A stretch of 64,000 nucleotides of DNA from Akkermansia muciniphila (lineage in GTDB: Bacteria > Verrucomicrobiota > Verrucomicrobiia > Limisphaerales > BJHT01), in assembly GCA_945861535.1 (NCBI GenBank), contig CAMAUZ010000004.1, positions 62,001 to 126,000 on the forward strand. The letters run 5' to 3'. Below the pieces are notes generated by a model that saw nothing but the letters and a program-made list of their open reading frames with translations, was not told the origin of the DNA and did no database searches. The translations under genes and the position numbers were made by a program. Of this stretch, positions 1,376 through 37,165 are shown in pieces. The first letter of the stretch is position 1; each line of letters opens with the position of its first letter.

Positions 1376-1407
1376 AGGTTGTGATGTAGGGGATGAAACG
1401 TGGGACT

Positions 1408-8187: not shown

Positions 8188-8206
8188 ACTCCAAACCTAT
8201 CCAGCC

Positions 8207-10231
8207 ATGCGCACTCAATTCGGCCTCGCAAAACAACTGGGACTTGGCTTCTCCGCCATCATCCTCCTGATGGCGGTCAGCGCGGTCCTTTCTTATCTCC
8301 GGCAGCGGGACATGAACCACACTGTCGCCGTGCTTCAGGAGGAGTATTTCCCCACCTCCACCGCGCTGGACGGGATGGTATCGTCGCTGCACCGGGCCTT
8401 GGCCGCGTTGCGGGGTTACCTGATCCTCGGGGCGGAAAAATCTGCCGCCGACCATTTCATCACGCTGCGCAAGGATGCCTGGATGGAGCTGGACCGCAGC
8501 AAGGGACAGCTCACCCTTTTTGCGAAAAAGTGGGACAACACGCGGGATTTGGGCAACCTCCAGATCGTCACCGACAACTTTGAGCCACTGCGTCAGGTGC
8601 AGCAACGTGTCGAAGACATTGCCCACACCGAACAGAACATTCCCGCCCTTCAACTCCTGACGACGGAGGCGGTGCCCCGGGCCGAAAAGATCGCCGCCGC
8701 CCTCACCGCGATCATGGATGCCGAGGCCGCGCAGGAAGGGACGGCTGAACGCAAGAAGCTGCTGAAAATCATGGCGGACACACGAGGATCCTTCGCCTTC
8801 GCCCTCGCCGATGAGCGCGCCTATCTGTTCACCGGGGATGAGGCCTTCCGGCGGTCCTTTGAAGAGGAATGGGCGAAATATGAGGCGGCCTTCAAACAGG
8901 CGGCGGGCCTCGTGGCGTTGCTCAACCCGAACCAACGCCTCGAGTGGGATAGTTTGGTTACCCTGCGCGGTGAATTCGCTCCGCTGATCAAAAAGATGTT
9001 TGATTTGCGCAAGTCCAAGGACTGGAACAAGGCCAACTACATCCTGGCCACCGAGGCCGCGCCGCGCGCGGAGAAAATGCTCGCCGCGGTGAAGGATCTC
9101 GACACCGCGCTCGACGAGCGTTTGCGCAAGGCCCGGACGGACGTGGAAACCGCCACCGCGCGCACCACCTGGACGCTGCTCGGCGTCACCGCGCTGGGCA
9201 TCATCTTGGGCGCGGGCATTGCCAGCGTCACCAGCCGACGCATCACCACCGCCATCAATGCCGTCGTGGAACGCGCCCGCAACATCGGCGCGGGTGATTT
9301 GAGAGGTCAGCCCATCCAACAGACGAGCAACGATGAAATCGGCGAGCTGGCTCAGGTGTTCAACGTGATGCAAGCCGGACTCCAGGAGCAAGTCCGCCAG
9401 ACCCGCTCCGGCGTCGAAAACCTCAACAGTGCCAGCGCGCAGATTCTGGCCTCCGCGCAGGAGCAGGCCTCCGCCACCAAGGAACAGGCCGCCACGGTAC
9501 AGGAAGTCACCAGCACCATGCAGGAACTCAGCAAGTCCGGCGCGGACATTTCCGACAAGGCCAAGAAAGTCGCCACCGCCGCCGAGGCTTCCTCCAGCGC
9601 CACCAAAGCGGGCATCAACGCCGTCGAGAAAACCACCCGCATCATGGATTTCATCCGCGAGCAGGTCGAGGAGGTCGCCGGAAAAATCGTGGCCCTGAGC
9701 GAGAAAACCCAGGCCGTCGGCGAGATCACCGCCGCCGTCAACGACGTGGCCGAGCAATCCAAACTGCTCGCCCTCAACGCCGCCATCGAGGCGGCAGCGG
9801 CCAACCAGGAAGGCAACCGCTTCTCCGTGGTGGCCGGGGAAATGAAAAACTTGGCCGATCAGGCGAAGGAATCCACCGCCCAGGTGCGCACCGTGCTGGC
9901 GGAGATTCAGAAAGGCATCAACACCTCGGTGATGCTGACCGAGGAAGCCGTCAAGCGGGTGGAAAGCGGCAAGCAACAGGCCGACATCATGCAGCAAACC
10001 ATCCGGCAACTGGCGCAGGCGACGGACGAAAGCGTGCAGGCGTTCCAGCAAATCATCGGCGGGACCAACCAGCAGCAAATCGGTTTTGATCAGGTCACCC
10101 AGGGCATGCAGGACATCCGGCAGGCGACCGAACAAACCGCGGCGTCCACGGCCCAACTGGAAGGCGCTGTCACCAACCTGACCGCCCTGAGCCGGCAGCT
10201 CACCGGGTTGATTGAAAAATACAAGGTCTAG
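8207..10231 (+). CDS. Methyl-accepting chemotaxis protein (WspA-like)
   Basis: A 674-residue receptor. Membrane helix 1 lies near residues 10-30 (LGLGFSAIILLMAVSAVL), followed by a mostly helical periplasmic sensor of about 290 residues, and helix 2 near 321-343. HAMP follows at about 344-400 and then the signalling hairpin. The hairpin tip (about 515-545) reads SKLLALNAAIEAA, then AANQEGNRFSVVA; the usual RAGE.GRGFAVVA is altered, with Asn-Gln in place of Ala-Gly. Methylation-region Gln/Glu pairs are present (EQASATKEQAATVQEV). No CheR-tethering pentapeptide is visible at the C-terminus, which ends LTGLIEKYKV. ATG 8207 was preferred to the upstream open frame because the first membrane helix starts right after it. 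Confidence 0.93.
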   Translation: MRTQFGLAKQLGLGFSAIILLMAVSAVLSYLRQRDMNHTVAVLQEEYFPTSTALDGMVSSLHRALAALRGYLILGAEKSAADHFITLRKDAWMELDRSKGQLTLFAKKWDNTRDLGNLQIVTDNFEPLRQVQQRVEDIAHTEQNIPALQLLTTEAVPRAEKIAAALTAIMDAEAAQEGTAERKKLLKIMADTRGSFAFALADERAYLFTGDEAFRRSFEEEWAKYEAAFKQAAGLVALLNPNQRLEWDSLVTLRGEFAPLIKKMFDLRKSKDWNKANYILATEAAPRAEKMLAAVKDLDTALDERLRKARTDVETATARTTWTLLGVTALGIILGAGIASVTSRRITTAINAVVERARNIGAGDLRGQPIQQTSNDEIGELAQVFNVMQAGLQEQVRQTRSGVENLNSASAQILASAQEQASATKEQAATVQEVTSTMQELSKSGADISDKAKKVATAAEASSSATKAGINAVEKTTRIMDFIREQVEEVAGKIVALSEKTQAVGEITAAVNDVAEQSKLLALNAAIEAAAANQEGNRFSVVAGEMKNLADQAKESTAQVRTVLAEIQKGINTSVMLTEEAVKRVESGKQQADIMQQTIRQLAQATDESVQAFQQIIGGTNQQQIGFDQVTQGMQDIRQATEQTAASTAQLEGAVTNLTALSRQLTGLIEKYKV

Positions 10232-10234
10232 CTC

Positions 10235-12856
10235 ATGGGCCTGAAAGAAAAACTGCTCCAGGCTTTTGCCGCCGAGCACCAGGAACTGCTTCAGCGCATT
10301 CGGGCCGCGCTGGACCGGCAGCTTTCCGGCGAATCGTCCTCCGCGCCACCGGAGTGGGCCGAGGCCTATCGCGCGGCGCACAGCTTGAAGGGTGCGGCGC
10401 GGGTCTGCGACCTGCCCGGCATCCAGCAGGTCGGCACCGTCTTGCAAACCATCTTCGGCCGGGTTCGCGACGGCGCGCTGACGCTCTCCGCCGAGCATGT
10501 CCGGGTGATCCGCGAGGCTGCGGACGGCGTCGAGCGGGCGGCCCAAGCGGGCGTCGCGGGCCAGCCGGTGCCGGACCTCAGCGCCCCGGCCGCCGCCTTG
10601 GAAAAAATTCTGGCGGCCGCCGGGACGGATTCGCCCAACGCGAAGAGCGAGCCGTCCAAACGTCCCGAACCCAAGTCACCGCGGGCGATGGGCGAGCGGT
10701 TGCTCGCCGCGTTCCAAGCCGAGCATCAGGAACATTTGGAATCCATCCGCGCCATCCTCGGCCGCCTGGAAGGTCAGGCCAATCCGGTCCTCGAGCCGGC
10801 GCAGATCAACGAAGTCTTTCGCGGGATGCACAGCATCAAGGGCGCGGCCCGGGTGAACGAACTGCACGCGGTCCAAAGCCTGGCCCACATTTTGGAAACG
10901 TTGTTTGCCAAGGTGCGCGACGGGGCGCTGGCGTTGACTCCCGGGACGCTCCACGAGATCCACCGCGGGCTGGACGCCCTCGAGGACGCCGCCGCGGCGG
11001 GGATTCAACGCCAGCCGGCTCCCGACATCTCGGCGGCTTTGAAAGCCATCGAATCGCTCGTGAGCGGTGACGCCACGACGGCGCCCGCTGTTCCGGTGCC
11101 CGCGTCCGCGCCCAAGCCGGAGCCTGCCGAAGTCGTTGGCGAAGCCGGGCAGACCGTTCGCATCAACGCCACGGCGCTGGACCGCATCCTGGACACGGCC
11201 GGCCAGTTGATGACCGAGTGTTTTCAACAGGCCGGATTGCGCCGCGATTTGAGCCAGGTGGCGCGCGCGACCGGCGAACTCCGCAAGGAATGGGAAACGG
11301 CCACGACCTCCGATCTGCAACCGCACGGCGCGAAGGCCGGCCCGGATGCGCACCGATTGCGGGAGCTGACGCGCCAGATGGCCTCCGTGCGGCGGCGGCA
11401 GTCCACCGGCAGTTGGACGCTCGAACGGCTGGCGCGCGAGCTGCACCAGAACGTGCGCCAGGCGCGATTCGTGCCCGCGGCCACGGTCTTCCAAGGTTTT
11501 CGGAAAATGGTGCGCGACCTCGCGGGTGATGAGGGCAAGGAGGTGGAGGCACAGGTGACGGGCTTGGAGGTGGAGGCGGATCGGCTCGTCCTCCAGGCGC
11601 TGAAGGACCCGGTGATGCACCTGTTGCGCAACGCTGTCAGTCACGGGGTCGAAAAACCGGAGTCGCGCCGCACGCACCACAAACCGGCGTCCGGCCGCGT
11701 GGCGCTGCGGGTCGCCTCGGATGGCAACCGCCTGTTGATCACGGTGGAGGATGACGGTGCAGGCATTGACCTCGGCCGGGTTACCGAGCTGGCGATCAAG
11801 CGCGGGATTATCACCGAAACGGAAGCGGCGGCCAGTTCCGCCCACGAGCTGACGCGGCTGATCCTGCGCGCAGATTTTTCAACCTCGCGGGTGATTACGG
11901 AAGTGTCCGGGCGCGGCATCGGATTGTCAGTGGTCAACACCACCGTGATGCGACTGGGAGGCGAGCTGGAGATCGAACCGCAGGCTGGCGGGGGGACGTG
12001 TTTCCGCGTCACCGTACCGCTGTCCCTGGCCACGCAACGCCTCGTCATGGCGCAGTGCCGGGGCCGCGAGTTCGGGCTGCCGTTCACCGCCGTGGAGTCC
12101 ATTCTGCGGGTCAAGTGGGCGGACGTGCGCTCCATCGAGGGTCATCCCCACCTGTTGCTGAAAGACGAAGCGGTGCCGTTGACCAGTCTTGAACAGGTGC
12201 TGCATTTCGATGACGCACAAATCCGGCTGGAGAACGGGCGCGCGCAAATCGTGGTGCTGCGCGGTGGCGGCAAGCGCCTGGCTCTCACCGTGGATGGTTT
12301 CGCCGGCACGCGCGACACCATCGTCAAGGACCTCCCGCCGCCCGTGGCCGTCAATCCGCAGCTCAGCGGGGCGATCATCACCGAGCAGGGCGGCGTGGCG
12401 CTGGTGTTGAATCCGGTTCAGCTCATCCAAGCCTTCGCTCCCTCCGGCGCCATCGTGGCGCGGACCGAGCAGGCCCGCACCGAGGAGGCGGCCCGGCACA
12501 CGGTGCTGGTGGTGGATGATTCTTTCACGACCCGCACGCTGGAGAAAAGCCTCCTCGAGGCGCACGGCTACCAAGTGCTCATCGCGGTGGACGGCGTGGA
12601 GGGGTTGGCCCGCCTGCGCGCGGAGAAAGTGGACCTGGCCATCATCGACGTCGAGATGCCGCGCATGGACGGCTTCACGATGCTCGAGGAAATCAAAAAG
12701 GATAACGTCCTCAAGTCCGTTCCGGTCATCATGGTTACTTCCCTCGAGAAGCGGACGGACATCGAACGGGGATTGAACCTCGGCGCGGAGGCCTACATCG
12801 TGAAGCGCAAGTTCGATCATCAGGAACTGCTGCGAACCATTGAACAGATTCTGTGA
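10235..12856 (+). CDS. Hybrid CheA kinase with two HPt domains and a C-terminal REC (WspE-like)
   Basis: An 873-residue protein. Two tandem HPt domains are present, with phospho-accepting His near residue 49 (AAHSLKGAAR) and near 199 (GMHSIKGAAR). A dimerisation segment follows (INATALDRILDTAGQLM), then the histidine-kinase ATPase (MHLLRNAVSHGVE, VEDDGAGIDL, SGRGIGLSVV) and a CheW-like regulatory domain. The C-terminal REC domain spans about 756-873 (VLVVDDS, acceptor Asp near 805 in IIDVEMP, conserved Lys in YIVKRKF). No separate P2 domain is obvious. WspE normally has one HPt domain, so the duplication is unusual. It starts 3 bases after the receptor gene stop codon. Confidence 0.93.
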   Translation: MGLKEKLLQAFAAEHQELLQRIRAALDRQLSGESSSAPPEWAEAYRAAHSLKGAARVCDLPGIQQVGTVLQTIFGRVRDGALTLSAEHVRVIREAADGVERAAQAGVAGQPVPDLSAPAAALEKILAAAGTDSPNAKSEPSKRPEPKSPRAMGERLLAAFQAEHQEHLESIRAILGRLEGQANPVLEPAQINEVFRGMHSIKGAARVNELHAVQSLAHILETLFAKVRDGALALTPGTLHEIHRGLDALEDAAAAGIQRQPAPDISAALKAIESLVSGDATTAPAVPVPASAPKPEPAEVVGEAGQTVRINATALDRILDTAGQLMTECFQQAGLRRDLSQVARATGELRKEWETATTSDLQPHGAKAGPDAHRLRELTRQMASVRRRQSTGSWTLERLARELHQNVRQARFVPAATVFQGFRKMVRDLAGDEGKEVEAQVTGLEVEADRLVLQALKDPVMHLLRNAVSHGVEKPESRRTHHKPASGRVALRVASDGNRLLITVEDDGAGIDLGRVTELAIKRGIITETEAAASSAHELTRLILRADFSTSRVITEVSGRGIGLSVVNTTVMRLGGELEIEPQAGGGTCFRVTVPLSLATQRLVMAQCRGREFGLPFTAVESILRVKWADVRSIEGHPHLLLKDEAVPLTSLEQVLHFDDAQIRLENGRAQIVVLRGGGKRLALTVDGFAGTRDTIVKDLPPPVAVNPQLSGAIITEQGGVALVLNPVQLIQAFAPSGAIVARTEQARTEEAARHTVLVVDDSFTTRTLEKSLLEAHGYQVLIAVDGVEGLARLRAEKVDLAIIDVEMPRMDGFTMLEEIKKDNVLKSVPVIMVTSLEKRTDIERGLNLGAEAYIVKRKFDHQELLRTIEQIL

Positions 12857-12868
12857 ACCTGCCACCCC

Positions 12869-14008
12869 ATGACTGATGCGACCAAGCTTATGCCGCTGAC
12901 CCAAGACGCGACCCGCCCGCCGGCGCTCGCCCGGAAACGGGTTTTGATCGTCGAGGACTCCGCCGTGATCCGGCAAATGCTGGAACACATCATCGGCAGC
13001 GATCCCCGGCTGGAGGTGGTCGCCTCGGTGGATTCGGGCGAAGCGGCGCTGCGCATCCTCAACCGCGTCTCGCCCGACGTCATCTCCATGGACATTCGCC
13101 TGCCGGGCATGAATGGATTTGAGACCACGCAGCGCATCATGGCCGAACGGCCCACGCCGGTCGTGGTCATCTCGGCCAGCGTCGAGGACGAGGATTTAAA
13201 AATCTCCATGAACGCGCTGCGCGCCGGGGCGCTCGCGGTCTTGGAAAAACCCACGGGCCTGGCCCATCAGGACTACGAAACCGTGGCCCAGAAAATCTGC
13301 ACGCAACTCTTCATCATGAGCCAGGTCCACGTGGTTCGGCAGCGATTTCCCCGCGCGGATCTCGGGACGCCCCGCCGCCTTTCCCCCAACGCCGAGCTGG
13401 TGCGGCCGGCGGCCCCCTCCGCCGCGCCAGGCAGCTACCGGATGGTCGGCCTTGCGGCCTCGACCGGCGGTCCCAATGCGGTCGTCAAGCTGCTGTGCGG
13501 CCTCGGCGCCGATTTCCCTCTGCCGGTGCTCTTGGTTCAGCACATTTCGGCCAGCTTTCTCAACGGCTTCGTGAACTGGCTGGGCGGAGTGACACCGCTC
13601 AAGGTGGTGCGGGCGGCCAACGGCGTCGTCCCCGCTCCCGGTCACGTTTACGTCGCCCCGGAGGACGTTCACCTGACGCTGCAACGCGGACGTTTGGTGC
13701 TCGTGGACAGCGCGCCGGTCAGTTCGCAAAAGCCGTCTGCCACCGTGCTCTTTGAATCGATGGCGGCCAGCCTGGGAGAGTCCGCCTTGGGCATCGTGCT
13801 CACCGGGATGGGAGATGACGGAGCCAAGGGATTGAAAGCAATGCGCGATGCGGGCGCCTACACGATCGGCGAAGACGAATCGACGGCGGTGGTGTTCGGC
13901 ATGCCGGCGGCGGCCTTTCAAATGGGTGGCCTGTGCCAGTTGCTGCCGCTGGATGAAATCCCCGAAAGAATGCTGGCCCTGACGGCGAAAAGAAACTCGA
14001 ACCCATGA
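12869..14008 (+). CDS. cheB: CheB methylesterase (WspF-like)
   Basis: A 379-residue protein with an N-terminal REC domain (VLIVEDS, acceptor Asp near residue 75 in [11 protein letters not shown], conserved Lys in LEKP) joined to a CheB methylesterase domain. The catalytic triad is visible: Ser in LAASTGGP (about 198), His in LVQHIS, and Asp in LTGMGDDGA. The enzyme removes methyl groups from the receptor for adaptation; in the Wsp system it resets signalling. Its stop overlaps the start of the next gene by 4 bases (ATGA), indicating translational coupling. Confidence 0.95.
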
Positions 14009-16113
14009 GTTCCCCGTCCATCACTCCCGCACCCAAACGCATCCTGCTCGTCGAGGATTCCCTCACGCAGGCCATGTTGTTGCAGGATATTTTGGAACAA
14101 GGCGGCTGGACCGTTGCCGTCGCCACCTCGGCGGAAGCGGCGATTGAACGCATCAATCAGGAATCTCCCGACCTCATCGTTGCCGACCTTTACCTGCCGG
14201 GAATGCGCGGTGACGAACTCTGCCGCCAGCTTCGGATGAACTTCAACACCCGGAGCATCCCGATTCTGATGCTCACGGCGGAGGAGGCCGGCAGCGCCGA
14301 AATCAAGGGGTTGGAAAGCGGCGCGGATGATTTTGTCCCCAAGTCAGTGGATCCGGAGATTCTGCTGCTGCGAGTGCGGATGCTGCTGACCAAATCGGAA
14401 GCCGCCTCGTCGGGCCTGGCCCAGCGGGAGTCACACTTCCACCGCGCACGGATCCTCACGATTGACGACAGCCCGACCTTTCTTGCGTTTTTGGAAGAGG
14501 AGTTGAGTCGCGAAGGCTACCAAGTCGAGCAGGCGCACGACGGGCGGGAGGGACTGGAGAAACTGAACACCGGCAATTACGACTGCGTGCTGGTGGACTT
14601 GGTCATGCCCGACATGGACGGCATCCGGGTCTGCCACGAGATCAATGAACTGCGCCACCGGTTGAGCAATCCCATCGTGGCGCTGATGCTCACGGCCCAC
14701 GAAAACAAGGAGGACCTCACGCGTGCGCTGGCGGCGGGGGCGGATGATTTCGTCGGCAAGTCCAGCGACGTGGCGGTGCTCAAGGGGCGCATCCGGGCCT
14801 TGCTGCGGAGGAAATTTTTCCAAGAGGAAAACCGCCGCATTCTTGAGGCGCTCAAGAACAAGGAATTGGAAGCCGTCAAGGCCCGTGCGGAGAAGGAGGT
14901 GGCCGAAGCCCGCGCCGCACTGGTGGGGGAACTCGAAATCGCCAAGGAACTGGCCGAGCACGCCAACCGCAGCAAAAGTGAATTCCTCGCCAACATGAGC
15001 CACGAGTTGCGCACGCCGCTCAACTCGGTGATCGGCTTCGGCAACATCCTGCTCAAAAACAAGGCGGGAAACCTCAGCGCGGAAGACCTCACCTTCATCG
15101 GGCGCATTCTCGCCAACGGCAAACATCTTCTCGGCCTCATCAACCAGTTGCTCGACCTCTCCAAGATCGAGGCTGGCAAGATGGAATTGGAGCTGACCTC
15201 GGTGGCTTTGGATCAATTGGTGCGCGAGACCCTGGCCACCCAGGAAAGCCTGTTGCGCGACCGCCCGGTGAAACTGCTGACCGACCTGCCCGAAGCCGTC
15301 GCCGTGCTGCAGGCCGACGCGGGCAAAATCAAACAAGTCCTCCTCAACCTCATCGGCAACGCCCTCAAGTTCACCGCCGAAGGCAGCATCACCGTACGCC
15401 TCGTGGTGGAGCCGGCCACGCGCCGGCCCCAGTGTCTGGAGGTGCAGGACACGGGCATCGGCATTCCCCGCCATCGCCAGGCCGCCATTTTCGAGGCGTT
15501 CCAACAGGCGGAGTCGGGCACTTCCCGGAAATATGGTGGCACCGGCTTGGGCCTCACCATCTCGCGCGCCTTCTGTCAGTTGATGGGGTTTCGGCTCGAG
15601 GTGCAGAGCGAGGAGGGCAAAGGCTCGACCTTCCGCGTAGTTCTGGCACCCGAAGCCAAACCCGCTGCGGGGCCAACGGAAGCGCCCTCGGCGTCGCCGC
15701 CCCACCCCGAACCACCGCTGGACCAGCCCGCGCGCCTCGTGCTGGTCGTGGACGACAATCCTGACTCGCACATCCTGCTGGGCAACTTAATCGAGGAATG
15801 CGGCTGCCGGGTCATCACCGCCGACTCGGGCGCGCTGGCGTTAACCCGGGCGCGCGAGTCCAAACCTGACCTGATTTTGCTGGACCTGATGATGCCAACC
15901 AAGAATGGCTGGGAGACGCTGCAGTCCCTCAAGGCCGACCCCGCAACCGCCGCCATTCCGGTCGTCATCGCCAGCATCGTCGCTCACGAATACCGCGGCA
16001 CGGTCCCGGGGGCGACGGATGTGTTGCAAAAACCCGTCTCGCGGGACGCTCTGCTACGCGTGATCCGCACCCATACGCGGCCCAAATTGCTGGTAGTCGC
16101 GGACTCGATATAG
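14005..16113 (+). CDS. Hybrid signalling protein REC-REC-histidine kinase-REC
   Basis: A 702-residue soluble protein. REC1 has an acceptor Asp near 61 ([11 protein letters not shown]) and REC2 near 198 ([11 protein letters not shown]). A charged coiled coil spans about 270-330, then HisKA with His near 333 ([11 protein letters not shown]), a HATPase domain ([26 protein letters not shown]), a Pro-rich linker and REC3 with Asp near 627 ([11 protein letters not shown]). It occupies the position where the wsp operon carries the diguanylate cyclase WspR, so the output here is further phosphorelay and not c-di-GMP synthesis by this protein. It ends [10 protein letters not shown] then stop, which looks like the first strand of a fourth REC domain; the remainder of that domain lies decayed downstream. 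Confidence 0.93.
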
Positions 16114-16413
16114 GACCGGCAATTATTCGTGGGCCGTATCGCATCCGAAGGCATTGAGTTTTACACGGGGGCAACGGACGCGAGGAGTTGGATCTGCTGA
16201 CCGAGTTCTCCTTGGACATCATCCTGCTCGACCTGCTCCCGCCGGAGCTGGATGGCTTGGCGTTTCCGGAGCAACTCCGCCAAGCCCTCCGGGCATGAAG
16301 GCTCCCAGGTGTTGACTGTGACGGCCAAGAAACTGCCGCCCGAAGATCTGCAACTGCTCCGTCCCCGGTCAGAAACCAGCTTCCGAAAAATCGGCAGTCT
16401 GGCGGCAGTTTGA
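16114..16413 (+). pseudogene. Decayed REC domain, former C-terminus of the hybrid kinase
   Basis: Directly after the hybrid kinase stop codon the DNA still encodes REC fragments in two frames. From 16203 (frame 0) it reads DIILLDLLPPELDGLAFPEQ, matching the phospho-acceptor region, and then hits a stop at 16296. From 16306 (the frame of the upstream gene) it reads QVLTVTAKKLPPEDLQLL and ends at TGA 16411, matching the region after strand 4 of receiver domains fused to hybrid kinases. The stop at 16111 and at least one net frame change have removed it from the protein. Confidence 0.75.
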
Positions 16414-16498
16414 AACTTCCTCTTCACCAAGCCGTGATCGCTGAACCCCGCAATCGTTCGCTGCCGGAGGCCACCTCCGGCCCCAGCCCGCAGAAGGA

Positions 16499-19817: not shown

Positions 19818-21011
19818 TTATTCTGCCAGTTCCCGCGCGCAGAACCACAGCATCCGCGGCAGATGAAACGGCCCCTTCCACAACGTCCCCTTCGCCCGTG
19901 ACGCCACCTTGCCATCACGCCGCAAATACCCGAACCACTCGCCAAATTCTGGATCCGGAAAATGTTGGAAACTCCAGTCATGCACCAGCCGGTGCATCTC
20001 GGCGTAACGCGCCTCGCCCGTCAGCTTCCACGCCAGCAACGTCGCGATGATCGCCTCATTGTGCGGCCACCAGAACTTCATGTCCTGCCAATACTCCTGC
20101 ACCGGCAAGCCCTTCAAATCCGTGAAATAAAGCAGCCCGCCAACCTCGTTGTCCCACCCGCGCGCCCACATCCAGTCCAGAATCTGCGTCCCCACGCCGA
20201 TCAACCGCTGGTCCCCCCGCAGCCGCCCCTCGTGCATGAGAAACCACGCGCACTCCAGCGCATGACCCGGGTTCAACGTCCGCCCGTCAAAGTGATCGAT
20301 CACACTCCCGTCCGGCGCGACATTCTCCATGAGCGCCCGCTGCTCCGGCTTCAGAAAATCCCGCTCAATCTCCGCGATGCTGAAATCAATCCACTCCGTG
20401 CAACTCCGCCCGCTCACGCTCACATCGCCCAGATTCGCCCGCAGCTCCTGCGCCGTCGCGATGCCGATCATGTGCGGCCCGATCCCCTTCATCGGCCGCG
20501 TCGCCTCGAACTTCGGCGGCATCACTCCCGGCGTGAAACTGTGATGCAAATACGTCGCGAAACACCGCTGCGCCTCCTCCGCCGCCTGCTGCTCCCCCGT
20601 CGCCTGCGCGAACGCCGCGAACGCAATTGCCGCAAATGACTCACTGAACACATACCGCCGCATCCGCAGCGGACGCCCCTCCCGCGTCACCGTGAAATAC
20701 ATCTTCCCCGCCGGCGAAAAACAGTGCGCCCGCAAAAACTCCACACAACTCCGCGCCGCCCCGAGCCACTCGGACCGCCGCTCCATCGTGTTGTGCAACG
20801 TCGCGAACATCCACGCCGTCCGCCCCTGAAACCACACCGACTTGTCCGTATCCACCACCGTTCCGTCGCGATCCACCGCCGTCATAATTCCGCCATGCTC
20901 GCGATCCATCCCATGCTTCAACCAGAACGGCATGACATCGTCGAGCAACGCATTCCGATAAACCTCCGCGAGCGCGGCGCGACTGGCGGCAGTTTTGAGA
21001 TCAGTGGTCAT
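19818..21011 (-). CDS. AGE-family (N-acylglucosamine 2-epimerase-like) sugar isomerase
   Basis: A 397-residue (alpha/alpha)6-barrel protein without a signal peptide, therefore cytoplasmic. Typical AGE landmarks: KSVWFQGRTAWMF with the conserved Arg, ESFAAIAFAAF, TLNPGHALECAWFL with the catalytic His, KFWWPHNEAI with a second His, and WKGPFHLPRML near the C-terminus. The family converts N-acetylglucosamine to N-acetylmannosamine, or mannose/cellobiose analogues. With sialidase-like and acetylesterase genes nearby, an N-acetylhexosamine substrate is attractive but unproven. ATG 21011 is followed directly by a family-like N-terminus. Confidence 0.88.
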   Translation of the reverse strand: MTTDLKTAASRAALAEVYRNALLDDVMPFWLKHGMDREHGGIMTAVDRDGTVVDTDKSVWFQGRTAWMFATLHNTMERRSEWLGAARSCVEFLRAHCFSPAGKMYFTVTREGRPLRMRRYVFSESFAAIAFAAFAQATGEQQAAEEAQRCFATYLHHSFTPGVMPPKFEATRPMKGIGPHMIGIATAQELRANLGDVSVSGRSCTEWIDFSIAEIERDFLKPEQRALMENVAPDGSVIDHFDGRTLNPGHALECAWFLMHEGRLRGDQRLIGVGTQILDWMWARGWDNEVGGLLYFTDLKGLPVQEYWQDMKFWWPHNEAIIATLLAWKLTGEARYAEMHRLVHDWSFQHFPDPEFGEWFGYLRRDGKVASRAKGTLWKGPFHLPRMLWFCARELAE

Positions 21012-21023
21012 AGTTTGGTTGGG

Positions 21024-21220
21024 AAAGTAATTAGTGATTAGTAATTAGTAGGGAGCGGGTAACTGCGGGCATTCGGTATTCCGCTGGTCTTGTTCACACG
21101 GGGCTTCGTCTAACACATCGCCTCTGGGAAAAGTAATTAGTGATTAGTAGGGACGAACAACCCGAAGCGTTCTGCTTTCCACTAATTACTAATCACCAAT
21201 TACTAATTACTTTTCCCACC
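21024..21220. repeat. AT-rich inverted repeat (TAATTAGTGATTAG type)
   Basis: The motif gggaaagtaattagtgatta appears near 21025, again with one extra A near 21127, and inverted near 21180-21217. The last copy contains the stop codon of the esterase gene (GAAAAGTAA). The right part can fold into a long AT-rich hairpin between the two genes and could act in transcript processing or termination. Confidence 0.65.
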
Positions 21221-22103
21221 CCCGCTTCGCCAGCACCTCCGCAAACCGCCGCCCCACCTCCAACGTCCCCGCCGCCGTGAAATGCGTGCGACCCGGCAGC
21301 AGCGTCTCCGCGCCCGCCGTATCGACATAGACACACAACTTGTCCTTCGCCGCCAGCGCCTGCTGCGCGGCGATCACCTTCGGCATGAACGGATTCTTGT
21401 CGTTCCCGAACCGCGTGTTCACCGCGATCAAGGCCACCAACTCGGGTGCATCAAGGTCCTTCCGCAACGCCGCCAGCATTGCGCCGAGATTCCTTTCGTA
21501 ATTCGCCGCGTCCGCCGCGTTCGCGTCGCTCTCGCCCTGCACCCACAGCAGCGCCCGCAGCCGCAGCGTGATCCCCTTGTCCTTCGCCGCCGCCATCGCC
21601 GCCTTCGTCTCGCCCACCAGCGCGCGATAACACGCCCCGGCCGGACCCGCGTCCGCCGGATTCCAATCCGTCCGCATCCCCGTGCCGCTGAACGCCGCCT
21701 TCACGATCGCCAGCGGCTTGCCGCCCTTGGCCCGCCACTCGCGCGCGAAGCCCATCTCCGGCCCGAACCCGCCCTCGGGCTTGGCGAAATTCCCATACTG
21801 CCGCCCCGACCGCGCGGCGGTGGCCTCCAGCTTCGACATCGGCGTCCCCTTCGGCTGCGGCTGCAGATGCGTCCACTTCCGCCCGCTCGTGACATCAAAG
21901 TCATCCGGCGGCGGATCACCCACCCGCCACCAGAACATCACCTCCTTGTCCCCCGCATCCGCCGGCAACTCGTTCGCGTAGGCATCGTAACCCACCGCAT
22001 TCGATTGCCCCGCCACCAGCACCAGCTCGCGCTGCTCGTCGGCACTGAGCGAGGCGAGCGAGACCAGCAACAGCACGGTGAAAAGGGGGAATTGGGTTTT
22101 CAT
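21207..22103 (-). CDS. Secreted SASA-type carbohydrate/sialate acetylesterase
   Basis: A 298-residue protein with a Sec signal peptide (residues 1-21, MKTQFPLFTVLLLVSLASLS). The nucleophile block is LVLVAGQSNAVGY, with Ser in GQSN. A GTGMRTDW segment and LLWVQGESDAN follow, and GRTHFTAAG near residue 283 carries the catalytic His. This order matches the SASA/CE6 class of acetyl esterases that deacetylate sialic acid or xylan. ATG 22103 is chosen because the signal peptide begins there. It lies next to the AGE-family gene in the same orientation. Confidence 0.88.
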   Translation of the reverse strand: MKTQFPLFTVLLLVSLASLSADEQRELVLVAGQSNAVGYDAYANELPADAGDKEVMFWWRVGDPPPDDFDVTSGRKWTHLQPQPKGTPMSKLEATAARSGRQYGNFAKPEGGFGPEMGFAREWRAKGGKPLAIVKAAFSGTGMRTDWNPADAGPAGACYRALVGETKAAMAAAKDKGITLRLRALLWVQGESDANAADAANYERNLGAMLAALRKDLDAPELVALIAVNTRFGNDKNPFMPKVIAAQQALAAKDKLCVYVDTAGAETLLPGRTHFTAAGTLEVGRRFAEVLAKRGWEK

Positions 22104-28655: not shown

Positions 28656-30959
28656 CTATTTGTTGTCGAGCAGTTGCTGAAGCTTGGGCCGCAGCGCCGC
28701 AGCCCAACGCTCGTAGCCGGCGGCGCTGAGATGCAGCAGGTCAGGCGCGATGGCGCGGGTGAGCGTGCCGTCGGGCTGGAGGAAGGCGGCGTTGAGATTC
28801 AGAAAGTGAACGCGTTTCCCGTCGGCGAGCGCGGGCAGCAGCGCGTTCACGGCCTCGCACTTGCGGCGCATCTCGCCGGCCGCGTCGGCGTCGCTCGGGA
28901 AAATCGCGAGGAGCAGCACCTGGGTCTGCGGACATTTCACCGCGAGCTTGTCGAGCACCGCGCGGATGCCCGCGGCGATCTGCGCCGGCGTGAAGTCGCC
29001 GTGCCGCGCGTTGTTGGTGCCGATGTGGAGGACGCAGACACGCGGCTTCAGGCCGTCGAACTCGCCGTGGTCCAGCCGCCACAGAACGTGCTGCGTGGAG
29101 TCGCCGCCGAAGCCGTAGTTCGCCGCGCGGAGCGGTGCGAAATGCCGCCGCCACACCTCCGCGCCGGTCGTCTCCCAGTTCTGCGTGATTGAATCGCCGA
29201 GGAAGACAACCTCCACGCCCGCTTTGGTTTCAGCGACCTTCGCGGCGTGGCGCGCCGGCCACCAGCCGAACTTGCCGGTCGTCTCGAAGCGCCCCTCCGG
29301 CAGTGCGGCGAGGTTCGCGCCCTCGACGGCGAAGCGCGCAAAGATCAAGCCGCCCGCGCCTTCATAGAGCATCGCTATGCGCCCGTCGCGCATGACGGTC
29401 ATGCACGAATACATGGCCCCGCCCGGGTCCACCACGCGCCCGTCGCTCCACGTTTTGCCGTCATCTTTGCTGGTGCGCACGGTAAGCGTCCGGCGCGATT
29501 TCACGTTGGCGGGATTGCTGAAGAGCAGCGTGCCGTTGGGATGCCGCAGCAGGCTCGCCTGACAGGTCGGGTCCGGCAGCGCGCGCCACGGCTCGCTCCA
29601 CTGCTTCCCGTCAAACTTCGCCCACAGCCGCTGCCCGCTGCGGGATTCGTCGCGCATCGTGATGAGCACGCCGCCATCGGAAAGCTCCGCCACCTGCGAC
29701 TCGCTCGTGGGGCCGACACACGGCGGCGACATCTTCCACGACTGGCCGTGGTCGCGGCTGGAAATGAAACACGAGTGCGGCGTGCCCTTCGCCTCGCGGA
29801 ACTGCGCGGGCAGCACCAGCGTGCCGTCGCGGAGCTGGATGCCGCGGCCCGGCCCGTTGAAACACAAGCGCCACTCCGGCCGCTTGACCTGCGAAGTAAT
29901 GCTGACCGGCGGCGACCACGTCACGCCGTCGTCGTCGCTGCGCGTGATGACGAACTGCCCCGTCTCCTCCGGTGTCAGGCCCGGCCCCGAGCCGTTCCAC
30001 GCGCGGTTCCCTTTCGACCACAACGCCGCGACGAAGATGCTGCCCGTCTCGCGATCCACCAGCACGGTCGGATCGCCCACCCCGCTGCCGTCGTAGTGCA
30101 ACACCCGCTGCGTCGCGCTCCACGTCTCGCCATCGTCGGTGCTGCGCGTGAGGCCGACATCGATGTTGCCCGGCAGGTCACCGCCGTTGTTGTGCCGCAG
30201 GTCGAACACCGCCAGCAGCGTGCCGTTCGTCGAGGTCGCCAGGCCGGGGATGCGATAGGTGTTCACGCCGTCCTCGCCGCTCCGGCGCAGGAATTTGGTC
30301 GTCAGTCCGGCGAAGGGTGCGGACGGCTGCGCCTGCTCCGCATCGGGCAAATCCACCGGCTCGCCCCACTTCTGCTTCAATCGCGCGGCCTGCGTCGCGA
30401 ACTCCGTCTCGCTGAGCGCCGACGCAAAAACCAGCACCTCGGCCACGTCGCACTTCAGCCCGTTCTTCGTCGCCACGTCCGCGCCGAGAATGAACCCGCC
30501 GAGGCTGCCGGTCGTGCGTTCGAATCGCAGCACCTGCCAGCCCCGGTCATCGCCCTGCACCCGGATCGCATCCGCGCCCGAGCGCGTCGAGCCGTCGCAC
30601 AACACGCCGTCAGCGCCGCGCGGAATGCGGGCGAACACGATCACCGTGCGCGCGCCCTCGAGACGTCCCCACGTCTGCGCCGGTTGCCAGACCGCCGAGC
30701 TGCCATCGAAACGCACGACCTCCGACACGCCCGTTGGGGTCTTCACTTTCCACACGCGCGGCGCACCGAAAATGTGGGTGAGCGGCCTCGTCTTGCCCGC
30801 ATCTTCCCAACTCGTGACCACGCCACTGCTCGACTGCAAACCGGCATCAGCGCGATACCAAGCGTACGGCTCGGCGGCGACGAGCGGGGCGCAAAAAGCT
30901 AAGAAGAAAACCACGAGTCTGAGGAGCGTCGTCGCAATCGCAAATGCCGAGATGCCCAC
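28656..30959 (-). CDS. Secreted laminin G-like + sialidase + SGNH acetylhydrolase fusion
   Basis: About 767 residues from the GTG at 30959, chosen because a signal peptide begins there (AIATTLLRLVVFFLAFCAP); the frame stays open to 31412 through repeat DNA. Residues 30-210 look like a ConA/laminin G-like binding domain. A sialidase propeller follows with the conserved YRIPGL and four Asp boxes (STDDGETW, SDDDGVTW, SRDHGQSW, SKDDGKTW). The C-terminal 220 residues form a PAF-acetylhydrolase-type SGNH domain: VVFLGDSITQNW, NYGFGGDST, LHIGTNNARHG and DLLHLSAAGY. Binding, glycosidase and O-deacetylase activities in one chain would suit O-acetylated sialoglycans. No close match is known to me, so the substrate is inference. 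Confidence 0.88.
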   Translation of the reverse strand: MGISAFAIATTLLRLVVFFLAFCAPLVAAEPYAWYRADAGLQSSSGVVTSWEDAGKTRPLTHIFGAPRVWKVKTPTGVSEVVRFDGSSAVWQPAQTWGRLEGARTVIVFARIPRGADGVLCDGSTRSGADAIRVQGDDRGWQVLRFERTTGSLGGFILGADVATKNGLKCDVAEVLVFASALSETEFATQAARLKQKWGEPVDLPDAEQAQPSAPFAGLTTKFLRRSGEDGVNTYRIPGLATSTNGTLLAVFDLRHNNGGDLPGNIDVGLTRSTDDGETWSATQRVLHYDGSGVGDPTVLVDRETGSIFVAALWSKGNRAWNGSGPGLTPEETGQFVITRSDDDGVTWSPPVSITSQVKRPEWRLCFNGPGRGIQLRDGTLVLPAQFREAKGTPHSCFISSRDHGQSWKMSPPCVGPTSESQVAELSDGGVLITMRDESRSGQRLWAKFDGKQWSEPWRALPDPTCQASLLRHPNGTLLFSNPANVKSRRTLTVRTSKDDGKTWSDGRVVDPGGAMYSCMTVMRDGRIAMLYEGAGGLIFARFAVEGANLAALPEGRFETTGKFGWWPARHAAKVAETKAGVEVVFLGDSITQNWETTGAEVWRRHFAPLRAANYGFGGDSTQHVLWRLDHGEFDGLKPRVCVLHIGTNNARHGDFTPAQIAAGIRAVLDKLAVKCPQTQVLLLAIFPSDADAAGEMRRKCEAVNALLPALADGKRVHFLNLNAAFLQPDGTLTRAIAPDLLHLSAAGYERWAAALRPKLQQLLDNK

Positions 30960-31412
30960 AGAGACGCGATGAACACAGGGCGGCGAAGCCGCAACCGAAG
31001 GAGCGCGGCTGTGTCCGCCGAGGACCAGCCGCAGCGGCCCCGAAACCGCGCAGGCACCCGTTGGAATTAGAGGCATCCCCTGCGGCCACCCTGCTGCGGC
31101 TGGTGCTCCGCGCACACAGCCGCGCTCCGTCTCCCTCGCCCCGTGAGGCACGAACGGGGAGAGGGCCGGGGAGAGGGGTGCTTCACCAATCCGAGCAGCC
31201 CCAGCCGTGCGGAGCGCCTCCTCTCCCCTGCCCTCTCCTCCGTTCCGAACGGAGGAGAGGGAGACGGAGACTCCGGTGCGATCTGCACGAACGTTCGCAA
31301 AGTTTGATCTTCGGAACAGCGCACCGTCATCGGGTGCGAACGGCCTGAGCGGGCGGGACGCCCGCGCTCCGACGGCATGGTTCCAGAGCAGAGTTTTCAG
31401 CTTCATTTTCAT
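30960..31412. other. Intergenic, repeat-filled leader of the sialidase fusion gene
   Basis: An open frame upstream of the sialidase gene continues to 31412, but its translation is repeat-derived (GPLRLVLGGHSRAP, SPALSPFVPHGAR) and not protein-like. The segment holds copy 2 of repeat family A, a half copy of the cacagagacacgatgaacac repeat at 30957-30977, and common agaggagggcagggg-type strings at 31190-31260. The real promoter must lie here or upstream of 31412. Confidence 0.6.
30978..31128. repeat. Palindromic repeat family A, copy 2
   Basis: Begins gggcggcgaagccgcaaccg and ends at cagccgcgctcc, like copy 1. The outer about 70 bases match closely, while the centre differs. It sits within 20 bases of the proposed GTG start of the sialidase fusion. 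Confidence 0.8.
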
Positions 31413-32669: not shown

Positions 32670-33147
32670 CAATTCGGGTCCGCGCGAGTCGAACACCGCC
32701 GCGCGCGTTTGTCCCGTGCGAAAATGGCGCAGGCGCGGCGTGCGGCGCGGTAGGGCCGGGCTGCCGCCCGGCCGTGGCCTTTTTCGTGGTAGGGCCGCGT
32801 TGCGCGCGGCCCTGCAATCTTCCCGTTCTTGCGTGAGGGGATTGGCGAGAACGTCGGTTGCAGGCGGGCGCGGCGGTGGGAGGAAAGGTTTCGGACACGC
32901 GCGACGCGTCCCTACCAGAAATCGTTCGCGCTCCTGGAATCATCCCTTCCGCGGGTGCGAAACCGGCCTCCAATCGCCCAAGAGAGCCAACGGACTACAG
33001 AGGAACGACCGGACTGGCACCGGGCCGGACCGTAGTGACCGGCACTTTTTTTCGCGCCGAAGAGAAAGTGCTTGCCCGAGGCTGGGGGGGGGGGGGTATC
33101 ACTTGGCGAATCCAATCACCCGAGAACCCAATCACCCAAGGATTCAC
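32670..33147. other. Divergent intergenic region with repeats and G13 tract
   Basis: 478 bases. It contains two GC-rich hairpins typical of the dispersed repeats (gtagggccgggctgcc near 32750 and gtagggccgcgttgcgcgc near 32791), an acgcgtccctacc half-palindrome near 32904, and a run of 13 G at 33084-33096. An open frame enters from upstream and runs into the next gene, but its translation is not protein-like. Confidence 0.6.
33084..33096 (+). repeat. Poly-G tract (G13)
   Basis: Thirteen consecutive G, 51 bases before the ATG of the secreted protein gene. Such runs change length easily and could alter promoter spacing or an upstream frame. No other homopolymer of this length was noticed in the window. 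Confidence 0.8.
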
Positions 33148-35415
33148 ATGCACCCAAAACCCGCCTGCCTCCGCCTCAGTTCCCGCTTCGGATTCCGGTC
33201 CGGCCTGTGCGCCGCGCTCCTGCTTTTCGCCAGCACAATGGCGTCCCGCGCGCAACCCTTGCTCGCACCGGAATTGCAGTTCACCCTTTCCTCCAGCATC
33301 GCCGCCGTAGGTCAGGATTGGGCCATCTACGCGGATGCGCGGATCATCAATCCCCGGTTCTGGAATTTTATGGAACCGGTGGTGCTCTCCATCTCCTCGC
33401 CGCTGGTCTCGCCGACCGCCTACGGGCCGCTGTGGTTTGGATGGGGGAGTCACTTGGTTACCGCCAATCCCCACGGCGACACCCCCGGAGTTTACGATGT
33501 CGTGGCACGGGCGAGCACCGCAGACTGGGTCGCGGCCCTGTACCCCGGCTGGCCGGGGCCGGCACACCCGCTCGACGGTGTGCTCGACCCCGCCGACCGC
33601 ATGGAAACCTCCATCACCCGGCAGGTCACCCTCGTCGCGCTCAACGGAGTCACCGCTGCTGTGACCACTGGAAATTCATCCTCCGCCTACCACGTCGCCG
33701 AGGGTGACACCGTCACCTTCACCGCCACCATGACTCCGGTAAATGCGTTCGATCTGGTCTGGTGGGAATGGTTTCCAGGCGGCTGGCCACCCACCGGCCA
33801 GACCTACACCAAGGTGATGACCCGCTGGCCATCACCCCTCGTACCCGTGGTTGAAGTCACCGCCACCTGCGGCAATAGTGTCGTCACCGTGCCCATCACC
33901 GTTTATCAAATCACCGGCGTGTCTGCCTCCGGACCCCTCGTGGCCGCAGGGGATCCCCTTACCTTCACGGCCACAATTGACCCTCCCGGCGGCAGCCCGC
34001 CGCCGATTGAGTGGTTTGTGAACGGGGTTTGGCAGGGCATTACGGCCACGGGGGCCACCTTCAGCACCACCAGTTTGCCCCCCGGCTACTATAGCGTTTC
34101 CGCAAAAATGGGTGGCACCGAGCAGTACGCCGGGGCGACCGTGGTGGGCATTGGCAGTGTTTCGATGAGCGGACCGGACTACAACGGAACGGTCCCGGCG
34201 GGCGAGGTCCGCTACATCTATCAGAACGACAGCTACACCTTCACCGCCACCGCCGCGCCCGAGGGCGCCGACTGGCCGTTGAATCAGCCGCAGTGGACGG
34301 TCAACGGGGGCACCACGACGGGCACCAACGCTCCAGGAACCTTTGGCACCCTTTCGACCTCCATCAGCAATTTCAAGACAGCCGTGGCCAGTTGCGGAAC
34401 CTCCGGTGCAACGATCAATGCGGTCGTGTATAAGTGTGACCTTACGATGGTTCCCGACGATAATTTCGAGGGGCGCTCACAGTCGGAATTCGGGATCGGT
34501 GAGATAATTTACGTCACCAATTCCATAACTCCGTCGGATTTGTCGATGTCCGCCGCCGGTTTGAGCTGGGGCACGAACCTCCCTTCTGAATCTGTCTTTG
34601 AAGATCTGACTCCTCCGCCCACTCCGTTGGGCTTCGCGGCGTTGGCAAGCGTATCTGCATCGGCGGCCATAACACCGGTAGGAATATCAGCATATAAGTT
34701 TATCGGGTATGAGCCGGCGGCTAGTTTCCAGCTCTGGATTCGGTTGCCGAGAGAGGATGTCGCGTCCCTTACGCCGTTGCTCGCAGCGGCACCAACTCCG
34801 GTCGGTGGCGCGCTCATTCCGCCCGTCACCGCAAAGTATTTGAAAATGACAGCGTCGGTTGAATCTCCCATTCCTTGGCCGGCATTTATTCCTGGAGTTG
34901 TCGGCATGGTTCGAGTTGGTCCCCAACCAACCCACATCCAATTCACCATGTCGTCAGCTCAGGGCCTAAATGTGTGGATCAGGCCCGAGAACGTTTCCTG
35001 GAAAGAAATTCAGTACCGCGAAGGCCGATCCGATATCTGGCGCAGTGGAGATTTTTTGAGTCCTCCATCTCCAATTCAAAGAGTCGGTGGCGTCCATGTG
35101 GCATGGTCGGCTCAGAATGTTCTACCGGGAACTCACTTAAAGGGTTGCAGGGTTGATTTTCCTGATTGCGTCGCGGTGTTTATGTCGGCGCTCCCCACGA
35201 TGGTCGGGACAGACGAAACCGACATTCCCATGGAATGGTGTTGGAAGACGCCACCAGGCGGACTTCCTCCGGTCTGGAAGACCTTCGGGGCAGATCCTGC
35301 GGCAAGCACAGTACGATCGACTAAGCGTGTCACCCCGGTTGGGTTGATTGAATTTGGGAAGCAAACCCTTGGCTGGAAGTCTGATTACAACGACCCGGAC
35401 AATTTCAATCCATGA
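33148..35415 (+). CDS. Exported multi-domain protein with Ig-like repeats, function unknown
   Basis: A 755-residue protein with a signal peptide (basic N-terminus, then GLCAALLLFASTMASRAQ). The first about 430 residues contain at least three beta-rich repeats with YHVAEGDTVTFTATMTP, LVAAGDPLTFTATIDPPG and YIYQNDSYTFTATAAPEG, which look like PKD/Ig-like modules. The remaining about 325 residues (from GEIIYVTNSITPSDLSMSA) match nothing I recognise. That half is visibly richer in A and T than the first half and than the rest of the window. Its stop overlaps the next gene by 4 bases (ATGA). ATG 33148 is preferred because the signal peptide follows it. Confidence 0.8.
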   Translation: MHPKPACLRLSSRFGFRSGLCAALLLFASTMASRAQPLLAPELQFTLSSSIAAVGQDWAIYADARIINPRFWNFMEPVVLSISSPLVSPTAYGPLWFGWGSHLVTANPHGDTPGVYDVVARASTADWVAALYPGWPGPAHPLDGVLDPADRMETSITRQVTLVALNGVTAAVTTGNSSSAYHVAEGDTVTFTATMTPVNAFDLVWWEWFPGGWPPTGQTYTKVMTRWPSPLVPVVEVTATCGNSVVTVPITVYQITGVSASGPLVAAGDPLTFTATIDPPGGSPPPIEWFVNGVWQGITATGATFSTTSLPPGYYSVSAKMGGTEQYAGATVVGIGSVSMSGPDYNGTVPAGEVRYIYQNDSYTFTATAAPEGADWPLNQPQWTVNGGTTTGTNAPGTFGTLSTSISNFKTAVASCGTSGATINAVVYKCDLTMVPDDNFEGRSQSEFGIGEIIYVTNSITPSDLSMSAAGLSWGTNLPSESVFEDLTPPPTPLGFAALASVSASAAITPVGISAYKFIGYEPAASFQLWIRLPREDVASLTPLLAAAPTPVGGALIPPVTAKYLKMTASVESPIPWPAFIPGVVGMVRVGPQPTHIQFTMSSAQGLNVWIRPENVSWKEIQYREGRSDIWRSGDFLSPPSPIQRVGGVHVAWSAQNVLPGTHLKGCRVDFPDCVAVFMSALPTMVGTDETDIPMEWCWKTPPGGLPPVWKTFGADPAASTVRSTKRVTPVGLIEFGKQTLGWKSDYNDPDNFNP

Positions 35416-36590
35416 ATCCGATCACCACAGCTATTGTCGCTGCATTACTACTGGAGTGCGGCGACTTTACTGCCCAGCTTTTGGGAGCAGTGTGGCTCAA
35501 CGCAAATTCCAATAACGTAGTTGATCTCTCAAAAACGGATCGGAGGCTAACGGAGTTCGTTAGAAGGCATCAGGCACTTGAAAGTAGCTATGACAACGCA
35601 TTAGGTCGAATTAATGCAATCGGCAAGGCCGGGGATTTGCAGGAAATGATCGGACTCGCCCGGGAAATCGAGCGGGATTGGGGGAGCCTCCAATCAGATT
35701 ATTCCGCTCCGTTATTTGGAGCGACTGCCGCAGGCCTTGTACAACGTTTTCGCTCCACCCCTGAGGCGGTAAGCCTTGCTATTCGGCTTGGCGATGCCGC
35801 ACTGGACCGAATTGGGGGACCCGGGTTACCCAGCTTCCAAAATTATGCTCTGGGCGGTCTCACCGGGGGACCGAACTCGGATCCGTTGGATCCGACAAAG
35901 GCTGCGAGCCTTCTCGACCGAGTGCGGATACTTGATGCTGAACTCTTCCTGTTTCAGATGGCAACGACCTATGTCTCTGTTCCGCTGGCTGACCAACTAA
36001 AGCCTTTCGAGAATCGGGTCTCGCGAAATGCCTTAAATTTTACCCCGCACCTAGATGGCGAACAGCTTCAGCTGGTGGTCAATGGAATTGAAAATGAGTA
36101 CAGATATGAGGATTTGAAGTATCAGTATAAATTTCTTACCGAGACAAATTCCGTGTACGGAGCACCGCGACTCGAGCTTTATCCCCGCCAGATCGGGCGC
36201 TTCGTGAGAGCGCGATTTGATCGAAGCGTTGAAGATTTGAAGCAGGTCCGCCGCAGCCTTCAATCGCGAATTACGGACCCGCTTCTCCGGGAAAAGCTCA
36301 TGACTGCGATCTACGGTAGCGAAAATCCTTTCTTGGCACTTCCCGAGGATTCAGTTGGTGCGGGTGGCGGCCCAAGTTTGGAAGCCCTGACGCGAAAGTC
36401 GGCGGCGGCCGGTCACGGTCCCCAGGCGAGTGGCGGCTCTCATGGCACGTCAGCTTCTGCGTCCGACACAGCCACCAGCGGGGCAGCACCGAGCACTTCC
36501 CCGCGCAGTCTTCCCTACCTCCCGCTGGCCGGCGTCCTCGCGGCCGGCGTGGTCCTCTGGTGGTTCCTCTCCCGTTCCCGCCCCAGTTAG
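35412..36590 (+). CDS. Helical protein with C-terminal membrane anchor, function unknown
   Basis: A 392-residue protein. A weakly hydrophobic N-terminus (TTAIVAALLLECGDFTAQLLGAVWL) is followed by a charged, mainly helical body to about residue 310. A Gly/Ser/Ala-rich linker (GSHGTSASASDTATSG) precedes a C-terminal hydrophobic helix (LPLAGVLAAGVVLWWFLSRS) ending in a short basic tail. The tail resembles surface-anchoring signals, but no LPXTG or PEP motif is present. Codon and base use up to about 36350 is AT-rich like the 3' half of the previous gene. The ATGA overlap indicates co-expression. No family recognised. Confidence 0.75.
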   Translation: MNPITTAIVAALLLECGDFTAQLLGAVWLNANSNNVVDLSKTDRRLTEFVRRHQALESSYDNALGRINAIGKAGDLQEMIGLAREIERDWGSLQSDYSAPLFGATAAGLVQRFRSTPEAVSLAIRLGDAALDRIGGPGLPSFQNYALGGLTGGPNSDPLDPTKAASLLDRVRILDAELFLFQMATTYVSVPLADQLKPFENRVSRNALNFTPHLDGEQLQLVVNGIENEYRYEDLKYQYKFLTETNSVYGAPRLELYPRQIGRFVRARFDRSVEDLKQVRRSLQSRITDPLLREKLMTAIYGSENPFLALPEDSVGAGGGPSLEALTRKSAAAGHGPQASGGSHGTSASASDTATSGAAPSTSPRSLPYLPLAGVLAAGVVLWWFLSRSRPS

Positions 36591-36853: not shown

Positions 36854-37165
36854 GGCGTGTTCGGGGGGAGGTGACGGACGCGCGCAACGCGTCCCTACCA
36901 AATCACGGTAGGGCCGGGTTGCGCCCGGCCCTGACCTTTTCCCGATTGGCGTGTGGGGGATTTCGGCGACGTCATTTGGTGCGGGCGCGTTCGGGGGGAA
37001 AGGCGACGGACGCGCGCAACGCGTCCCTACCAAATGAGGGTAGGGCCGGGTTGCGCCCGGCCCTGACCTTTTCCCAGTTGGCGCGTGGGGGATTTCGGCG
37101 ACGTCATTTGGTGCGAGCGCGTTTGGGGGAGAGGTCACGGACGCGCGCAACGCGTCCCTACCACG
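36854..37165. repeat. 131-bp tandem repeat, about 2.4 copies
   Basis: Each unit contains ggacgcgcgcaacgcgtccc (starts at 36876, 37008 and 37139), then a gtagggccgggttgcgcccg hairpin, ttttccc and ggcgacgtcatttggtgcg. Units 1 and 2 differ at only a few positions; the third is partial. Confidence 0.85.

Follow-up and report, generated by a model that had tools for sequence, protein, structure and literature searches.

We propose that two overlapping genes in the window, the 64,000-nucleotide stretch of DNA analysed here (C4:62001-126000 of the 7.9-Mb Verrucomicrobiota genome G000), encode an exported, matched pair of proteins with an exchangeable recognition cassette. In this reading, to which we assign a probability of about 0.5, an Ig-like stalk carries a C-terminal tip, an anchored cognate partner is encoded directly behind it, and the pair most likely serves recognition or conflict. 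The cassette crosses the gene boundary, covering the end of gene 1 and the start of gene 2, and such a block would be a natural record that the two proteins must match. A widespread exported pair that so far carries no name would thereby gain a testable function, namely specific binding together with a surface role in recognition or conflict.

The gene pair and its divergent middle

The start codon of gene 2 overlaps the stop codon of gene 1 (Table 1). Export signals were read from hydropathy, without a dedicated signal-peptide predictor. The product of gene 2 begins with an N-terminal signal, continues through a helical body and a linker rich in Ser, Ala and Gly, and ends in a hydrophobic anchor, whose transmembrane segment is encoded at about 36513-36572. 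The initial annotation had described an overlapping two-gene secreted pair of no recognised family, and this description holds: the open reading frames, the ATGA overlap, the signals and the anchor are all seen, and the profile and PDB searches that it had called for gave no named match for the C-terminal half of gene 1 or for gene 2, with nothing above threshold in Pfam, NCBIfam, PHROGs, PADLOC or the PDB. Profile searches of the PDB returned chance-level matches or none. The characterization of gene 1 as an Ig-like secreted protein was borne out in part. Its N-terminal hydrophobic signal is clear, but the Ig-like character is sub-threshold only (Pfam Big_3_5, 22 bits vs a cut-off of 35.5, residues 259-331). 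AlphaFold2 models calculated from two-row alignments were unusable, with a mean pLDDT of 29 for the C-terminal half of gene 1 and 44 for gene 2.

Table 1. Coordinates of the gene pair, its parts and the flanking repeats (positions in the window)
Feature	Position	Strand	Basis
Dispersed palindromic intergenic repeats, left flank	32754..32917	.	
Gene 1, secreted Ig-like protein, 755 aa	33148..35415	+	ORF, ATG; G037 ortholog 63% identical
Gene 1 N-terminal export signal, about residues 1-36	33148..33255	+	Hydropathy 2.55 over 10 residues, end ASRAQ
Gene 1 front half, Ig-like, native-like composition, kept between species	33256..34404	+	Amino acid identity, third positions, GC3
Putative exchanged cassette (gene 1 C-terminal half and gene 2 body)	34400..36350	.	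DNA alignment gap, third positions, GC3
Unnamed C-terminal domain core, gene 1 residues 596-748	34933..35391	+	Leave-out HMMs, hhalign, sole own-genome match
ATGA overlap of gene 1 and gene 2	35412..35415	+	Sequence; same junction type in G037, TAV5, G125
Gene 2, secreted helical partner with C-terminal anchor, 392 aa	35412..36590	+	ORF; G037 ortholog 36%
Gene 2 tail, Ser/Ala/Gly-rich linker and membrane anchor, outside the cassette	36366..36587	+	74% identical to G037, GC3 0.73
Dispersed repeats, right flank, 132-bp tandem units	36860..37163	.	

In a search of 293 genomes of the order, the only match to gene 2 outside G000 was in G037, the one other genome of the family in the comparison, and a peptide-pattern search of genome contigs likewise returned only this genome (BJHT01000015.1, Verrucomicrobiota bacterium LBMAG_Verrucomicrobia_hypo.bin2). 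The comparison presented here is therefore between G000 and G037, two members of the same genus and the only two genomes that carry the exact locus. The locus is syntenic in both, with a sialidase/SGNH-like gene and an MFS gene on one side and a 329-aa, a 153-aa and a permease gene on the other. DNA identity amounts to 83.5% up to position 34539 and to 85% from position 36367, and no alignment is obtained between 34540 and 36366. At the protein level, amino acid identity per 30-codon block is 77-97% in the front half of gene 1 after the signal region, decreases to 67% and 60% in the blocks at 34405-34584, and is 20-45% in the rest of the gene. The blocks of gene 2 before the tail are 13-47% identical, and those of the tail 57-89%.

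Codon third positions are informative in this respect. At residues that are identical in the two genomes, the third position is also identical in 268 of 341 cases in the front half and in 42 of 52 in the gene 2 tail, vs 53 of 164 in the cassette (Fisher p of 1e-23 and 8e-10); the neighbouring genes give 0.77-0.88. Selection on the protein could not randomise third positions only inside, and the two genomes therefore carry alleles of very different age in the middle part, as expected of a replaced block. The cassette across the end of gene 1 and the start of gene 2 thus appears to have been exchanged as a single unit. This is inferred from one comparison, because only these two genomes carry the exact locus, and it is in these two that an exchangeable C-terminal part beside a matched gene is found.

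The base composition changes along the pair. GC drops from 62-70% in the surroundings to 52-58% in the stretch from about 34.25 to 36.5 kb. GC3 is 0.78 for residues 1-419 of gene 1 and 0.56 for residues 420-755, and in gene 2 it is 0.52 for residues 1-318 and 0.73 for the tail, with values of 0.80-0.88 in the neighbouring genes. The low-GC stretch begins within gene 1 and stops within gene 2, because it is there that the GC3 steps fall, and the cassette borders match both steps (0.78 to 0.56 and 0.52 to 0.73). The cassette allele of G037 is likewise low (GC3 0.53), and GC3 lies below that of the neighbours at 19 of 21 other family loci. The AT-richer stretch from about 34.4 to 36.35 kb that had been reported earlier corresponds to the exchanged cassette, and GC and codon use are indeed non-uniform. 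The broader claim of a pair of foreign composition needs to be narrowed: the internal cassette is foreign by GC and GC3, but the front half of gene 1 and the anchor of gene 2 resemble the flanking genes in composition and divergence.

Repeats flank the pair on both sides, and the initial annotation considered that they isolate it. Within the 64-kb window they do occur only beside the pair (7 matches vs 0.12 expected), but they are dispersed genome repeats, with 66 copies in G000 and 63 in G037. These copy numbers in two congeners led us to reject the repeats as ends of a mobile unit. We also rejected the anchor tail as a shared sorting signal, as neither G000 nor G037 holds a convincing second copy.

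Two other histories of the locus were considered. The pair may have been inherited vertically without any exchange, its middle evolving very fast under diversifying selection. The residual similarity that runs through the whole cassette, at 13-47% amino acid identity per block, would suit such a history, but at conserved residues it is only within the cassette that third positions are randomised, and the border of divergence matches the GC3 shift. Protein-level selection leaves both observations unexplained, and we regard this history as very improbable. The other possibility, implied by the initial annotation, is that the entire pair arrived recently as foreign DNA carried between the repeats. 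Part of the pair is of low GC and repeats lie on both sides; however, the pair is syntenic in G037, its front half and tail are near the background in divergence and composition, and the repeats are dispersed in 66 copies, which makes an insertion of this kind highly unlikely.

Relatives of the tip domain and its partner genes

With a profile built from two rows of the gene 1 C-terminal half, weak matches were obtained in G453 and G363, and each proved to be the end of a secreted protein with a secreted helical gene behind it. A profile made from better-kept members identified the domain in 18 of 387 genomes of Verrucomicrobiota and, later, in 13 of 320 genomes of the order. By tblastn, the domain was also located on the Opitutaceae TAV5 plasmid CP007054.1, the only plasmid on which the plasmid search found it. 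Viral contigs and phage records contained no relatives, and a phage tail-fibre PHROG weakly matches 1 of 12 members (E 0.002). At least 30 relatives of the domain were collected, none of which is named. Whether the pair occurs together in other genomes had been raised in the initial annotation, and it does so in G037 and at further loci.

Leave-out HMMs, from which the own genus was excluded, score the window protein at 12.8 bits vs 6.2 for the best shuffle and, when enriched to 34 relatives, at 26.9 bits vs 5.3. An hhalign comparison of the domain with its relatives gives 96.2% at an E value of 2.5e-9, and a search of the own genome returns a single match, which is the gene 1 locus itself (E 0.024). 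No second copy or standalone tip cassette was found in the own genome or in the window. In an alignment that included the window protein, the invariant positions (GxGE, P, PxxV-aromatic, E, D, IP, K) are kept, the corresponding residues being G449, E452, P549, P613, V616, W618, E625, D673, P694 and K738. Few of the invariant positions are polar, namely an E and a nearly invariant D. Judged by these profiles, the C-terminal domain of gene 1 is homologous to many unnamed proteins across the phylum. Big_3_5, PKD and SlpA_N are found at sub-threshold level in the Ig part of gene 1 or in relatives, and none of them covers the C-terminal domain.

Some relatives are partial. Short secreted-looking proteins at L109:1476-2066 and L110:6285-6647 contain the last third of the domain only and are possibly standalone tips. 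At L022 (G174 C196), a gene at 584-1837 (-) is related to the Ig part of gene 1 (40% over residues 160-343); its frame enters a transposase gene on the opposite strand, and it looks interrupted by an insertion sequence.

The domain is usually followed by a closely spaced gene. A gene starts within about -48 to +14 bases of the gene 1 stop at 18 of 21 loci, with one additional fusion, and in a second locus set the partner lies within 26 bases at 9 of 13, again with one additional fusion. In the window, a secreted gene begins directly at the stop of the domain gene, and ATGA overlaps are present in the window, in G037, TAV5 and G125, and at L102. The partner proteins that were examined begin with a segment that is hydrophobic and signal-like. 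Outside the genus, the closest full counterpart occurs in G125 (L111), where an Ig protein with the domain is joined through ATGA to a partner with linker and anchor. On the TAV5 plasmid (L023), genes 14473-15720 and 15717-16421 show the same domain, ATGA overlap and secreted helical partner; this pair differs from that of the window in its shorter Ig part, its unanchored partner and an RHS-like gene upstream.

The partners are of several types. A helical type occurs in TAV5, G363, G453 and G278, another helical kind in g120, a species-rich genus with 3-Mb genomes, and RCC1 propellers form a third type. In g120, the partner is present in tandem copies that are 90% identical (L065, L068). Several copies in this genus are alike rather than hypervariable. 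The partner types found elsewhere have no detectable similarity to one another, and "gene 2" therefore denotes a position, not a single family. Against a five-partner profile, gene 2 of G037 reaches 15.2 bits (best shuffle 3.0), and P0002, the gene 2 product of the window, does not score alone. The pair alignment of gene 2 matches a seven-member partner set at 91.8% (E 7e-7) and the five-member set at 3.8%. Homology of the window gene 2 to the helical partners is thus likely, though not proven. Fusions of domain and partner occur in G440 (L059:6399-8303), where the gene 2 part scores 24.0 bits vs 7.4 for the best shuffle, and at L105:7754-9448, where the domain is joined to an RCC1 propeller.

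Several further arrangements were noted at these loci. RCC1 beta-propeller proteins lie directly after the domain, or are fused to it, in several genomes of the order (L100, L102, L104, L105 and L109). At L020 (G453), the neighbouring Ig proteins at 12399-14819 and 7874-9943 (-) share their front and differ at their ends; one ends in this domain and the other in a transglutaminase-like part, and each has its own downstream secreted genes. The RHS-like gene on the TAV5 plasmid, at L023 12723-14483 directly upstream of the pair, combines DUF6531 and an RHS repeat at sub-threshold level, and a second RHS-like gene lies on the other strand at 20379-21881. The GC of this stretch is about 40%, vs mostly 50-70% in the surrounding plasmid.

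Possible roles of the pair

We propose that gene 1 forms an Ig-like stalk bearing the unnamed, phylum-wide C-terminal domain, and that gene 2, translated via the ATGA overlap, provides a cognate partner placed in the envelope by its tail anchor. Recombination in the conserved flanks, i.e., the front half of gene 1 and the tail of gene 2, would replace domain and partner together and keep their match. The cell would thereby gain a new matched tip and partner and retain the stalk and the anchor. The pair would act in specific recognition or inter-bacterial conflict at the surface, in an organisation resembling that of Sec-exported polymorphic systems. The exchange as a block and the occasional fusion would both arise because the gene 1 tip and the gene 2 product bind each other, and the fusions are suggestive of this binding. 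Gene 1 would presumably reach the surface. A role in recognition or conflict there is consistent with the patchy occurrence, the variation, the composition and the location on a mobilizable plasmid.

The searches revealed neither a toxin nor an adhesion domain in the pair. An adhesin or substrate-binding complex, in which gene 2 supplies a dedicated chaperone or assembly partner to hold the domain at the surface or while it is exported, and in which variability is driven by changing ligands or phage pressure, would account for the export of both proteins, the anchor of gene 2, the Ig-like repeats, the RCC1 partners and the fusions. It leaves the tandem partner copies and the unrelated partner types unexplained, and a carbohydrate-binding or adhesin domain is missing among the matches; we consider this explanation rather unlikely. 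A true polymorphic toxin, in which the C-terminal domain of gene 1 is an envelope toxin and gene 2 a periplasmic, anchored immunity protein, is unlikely as well. The constant front, variable tip and adjacent partner would fit a toxin, and the 90% identical partner copies at L065 and L068 are reminiscent of immunity arrays. Transglutaminase, bacterial Ig and RHS domains co-occur in polymorphic toxins (PMC3482391). On the TAV5 plasmid an RHS-like gene immediately precedes the pair, and in G453 a sister Ig protein has a different, transglutaminase-like tip and other downstream genes. Conversely, Pfam, NCBIfam, PHROGs, PADLOC and the PDB return no toxin domain; toxin tips are usually mutually unrelated, but this domain forms a single family, in which few polar residues are invariant; and the own genome is without a standalone tip cassette. 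We therefore treat toxin-immunity as a rival and not as the leading claim, because no toxin domain was detected.

The organisation itself has precedents. Sec-exported polymorphic toxins (PMC3482391) share with the pair the export signal, the constant front, the exchangeable C-terminal part and the adjacent partner, and the likeness extends in the relatives to partner duplications and to the RHS neighbour on the TAV5 plasmid. The pair in the window is unlike them in having no toxin domain, an exported partner, a tip of one family and no standalone cassettes. In the VARTIG loci of Thermococcales (PMC8416519), a large Ig protein with a hypervariable C-terminal region that undergoes interspecies recombination is followed by downstream matched membrane genes; no toxin was identified, and the organisation was likened to polymorphic toxin systems. 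The likeness to our pair is one of organisation, taken from that description: an Ig protein, an exchanged C-terminal part, a matched downstream gene and no toxin. VARTIG is archaeal, its variable part is an Ig domain, and its gene arrays are larger, whereas the pair in the window is bacterial and consists of two genes, with the cassette running into the second. The proteins would represent undescribed families in a known kind of organisation. A more speculative and rather doubtful extension is that the pair is a phylum-wide bacterial counterpart of VARTIG, a system of self/non-self surface recognition in Verrucomicrobiota in which the Ig-protein tip and its envelope partner are swapped between species in a single cassette across the gene overlap and so stay matched. 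If the proposed reading of the pair is right, modules of hypervariable Ig proteins, to date described as peculiar to a single archaeal order, would extend to a bacterial phylum that is common in lakes, soils and guts.

A neighbouring length difference

One further difference between the two genomes lies outside the pair. About 474 bases at window positions 30918-31391, in the 5' end of the sialidase/SGNH-like gene (28656-31412, -), are absent in G037. These bases sit between the first codons and the signal-peptide core and resemble dispersed repeat sequence read in frame. The start assigned to this 918-aa protein may be wrong, or its signal peptide may be disrupted.
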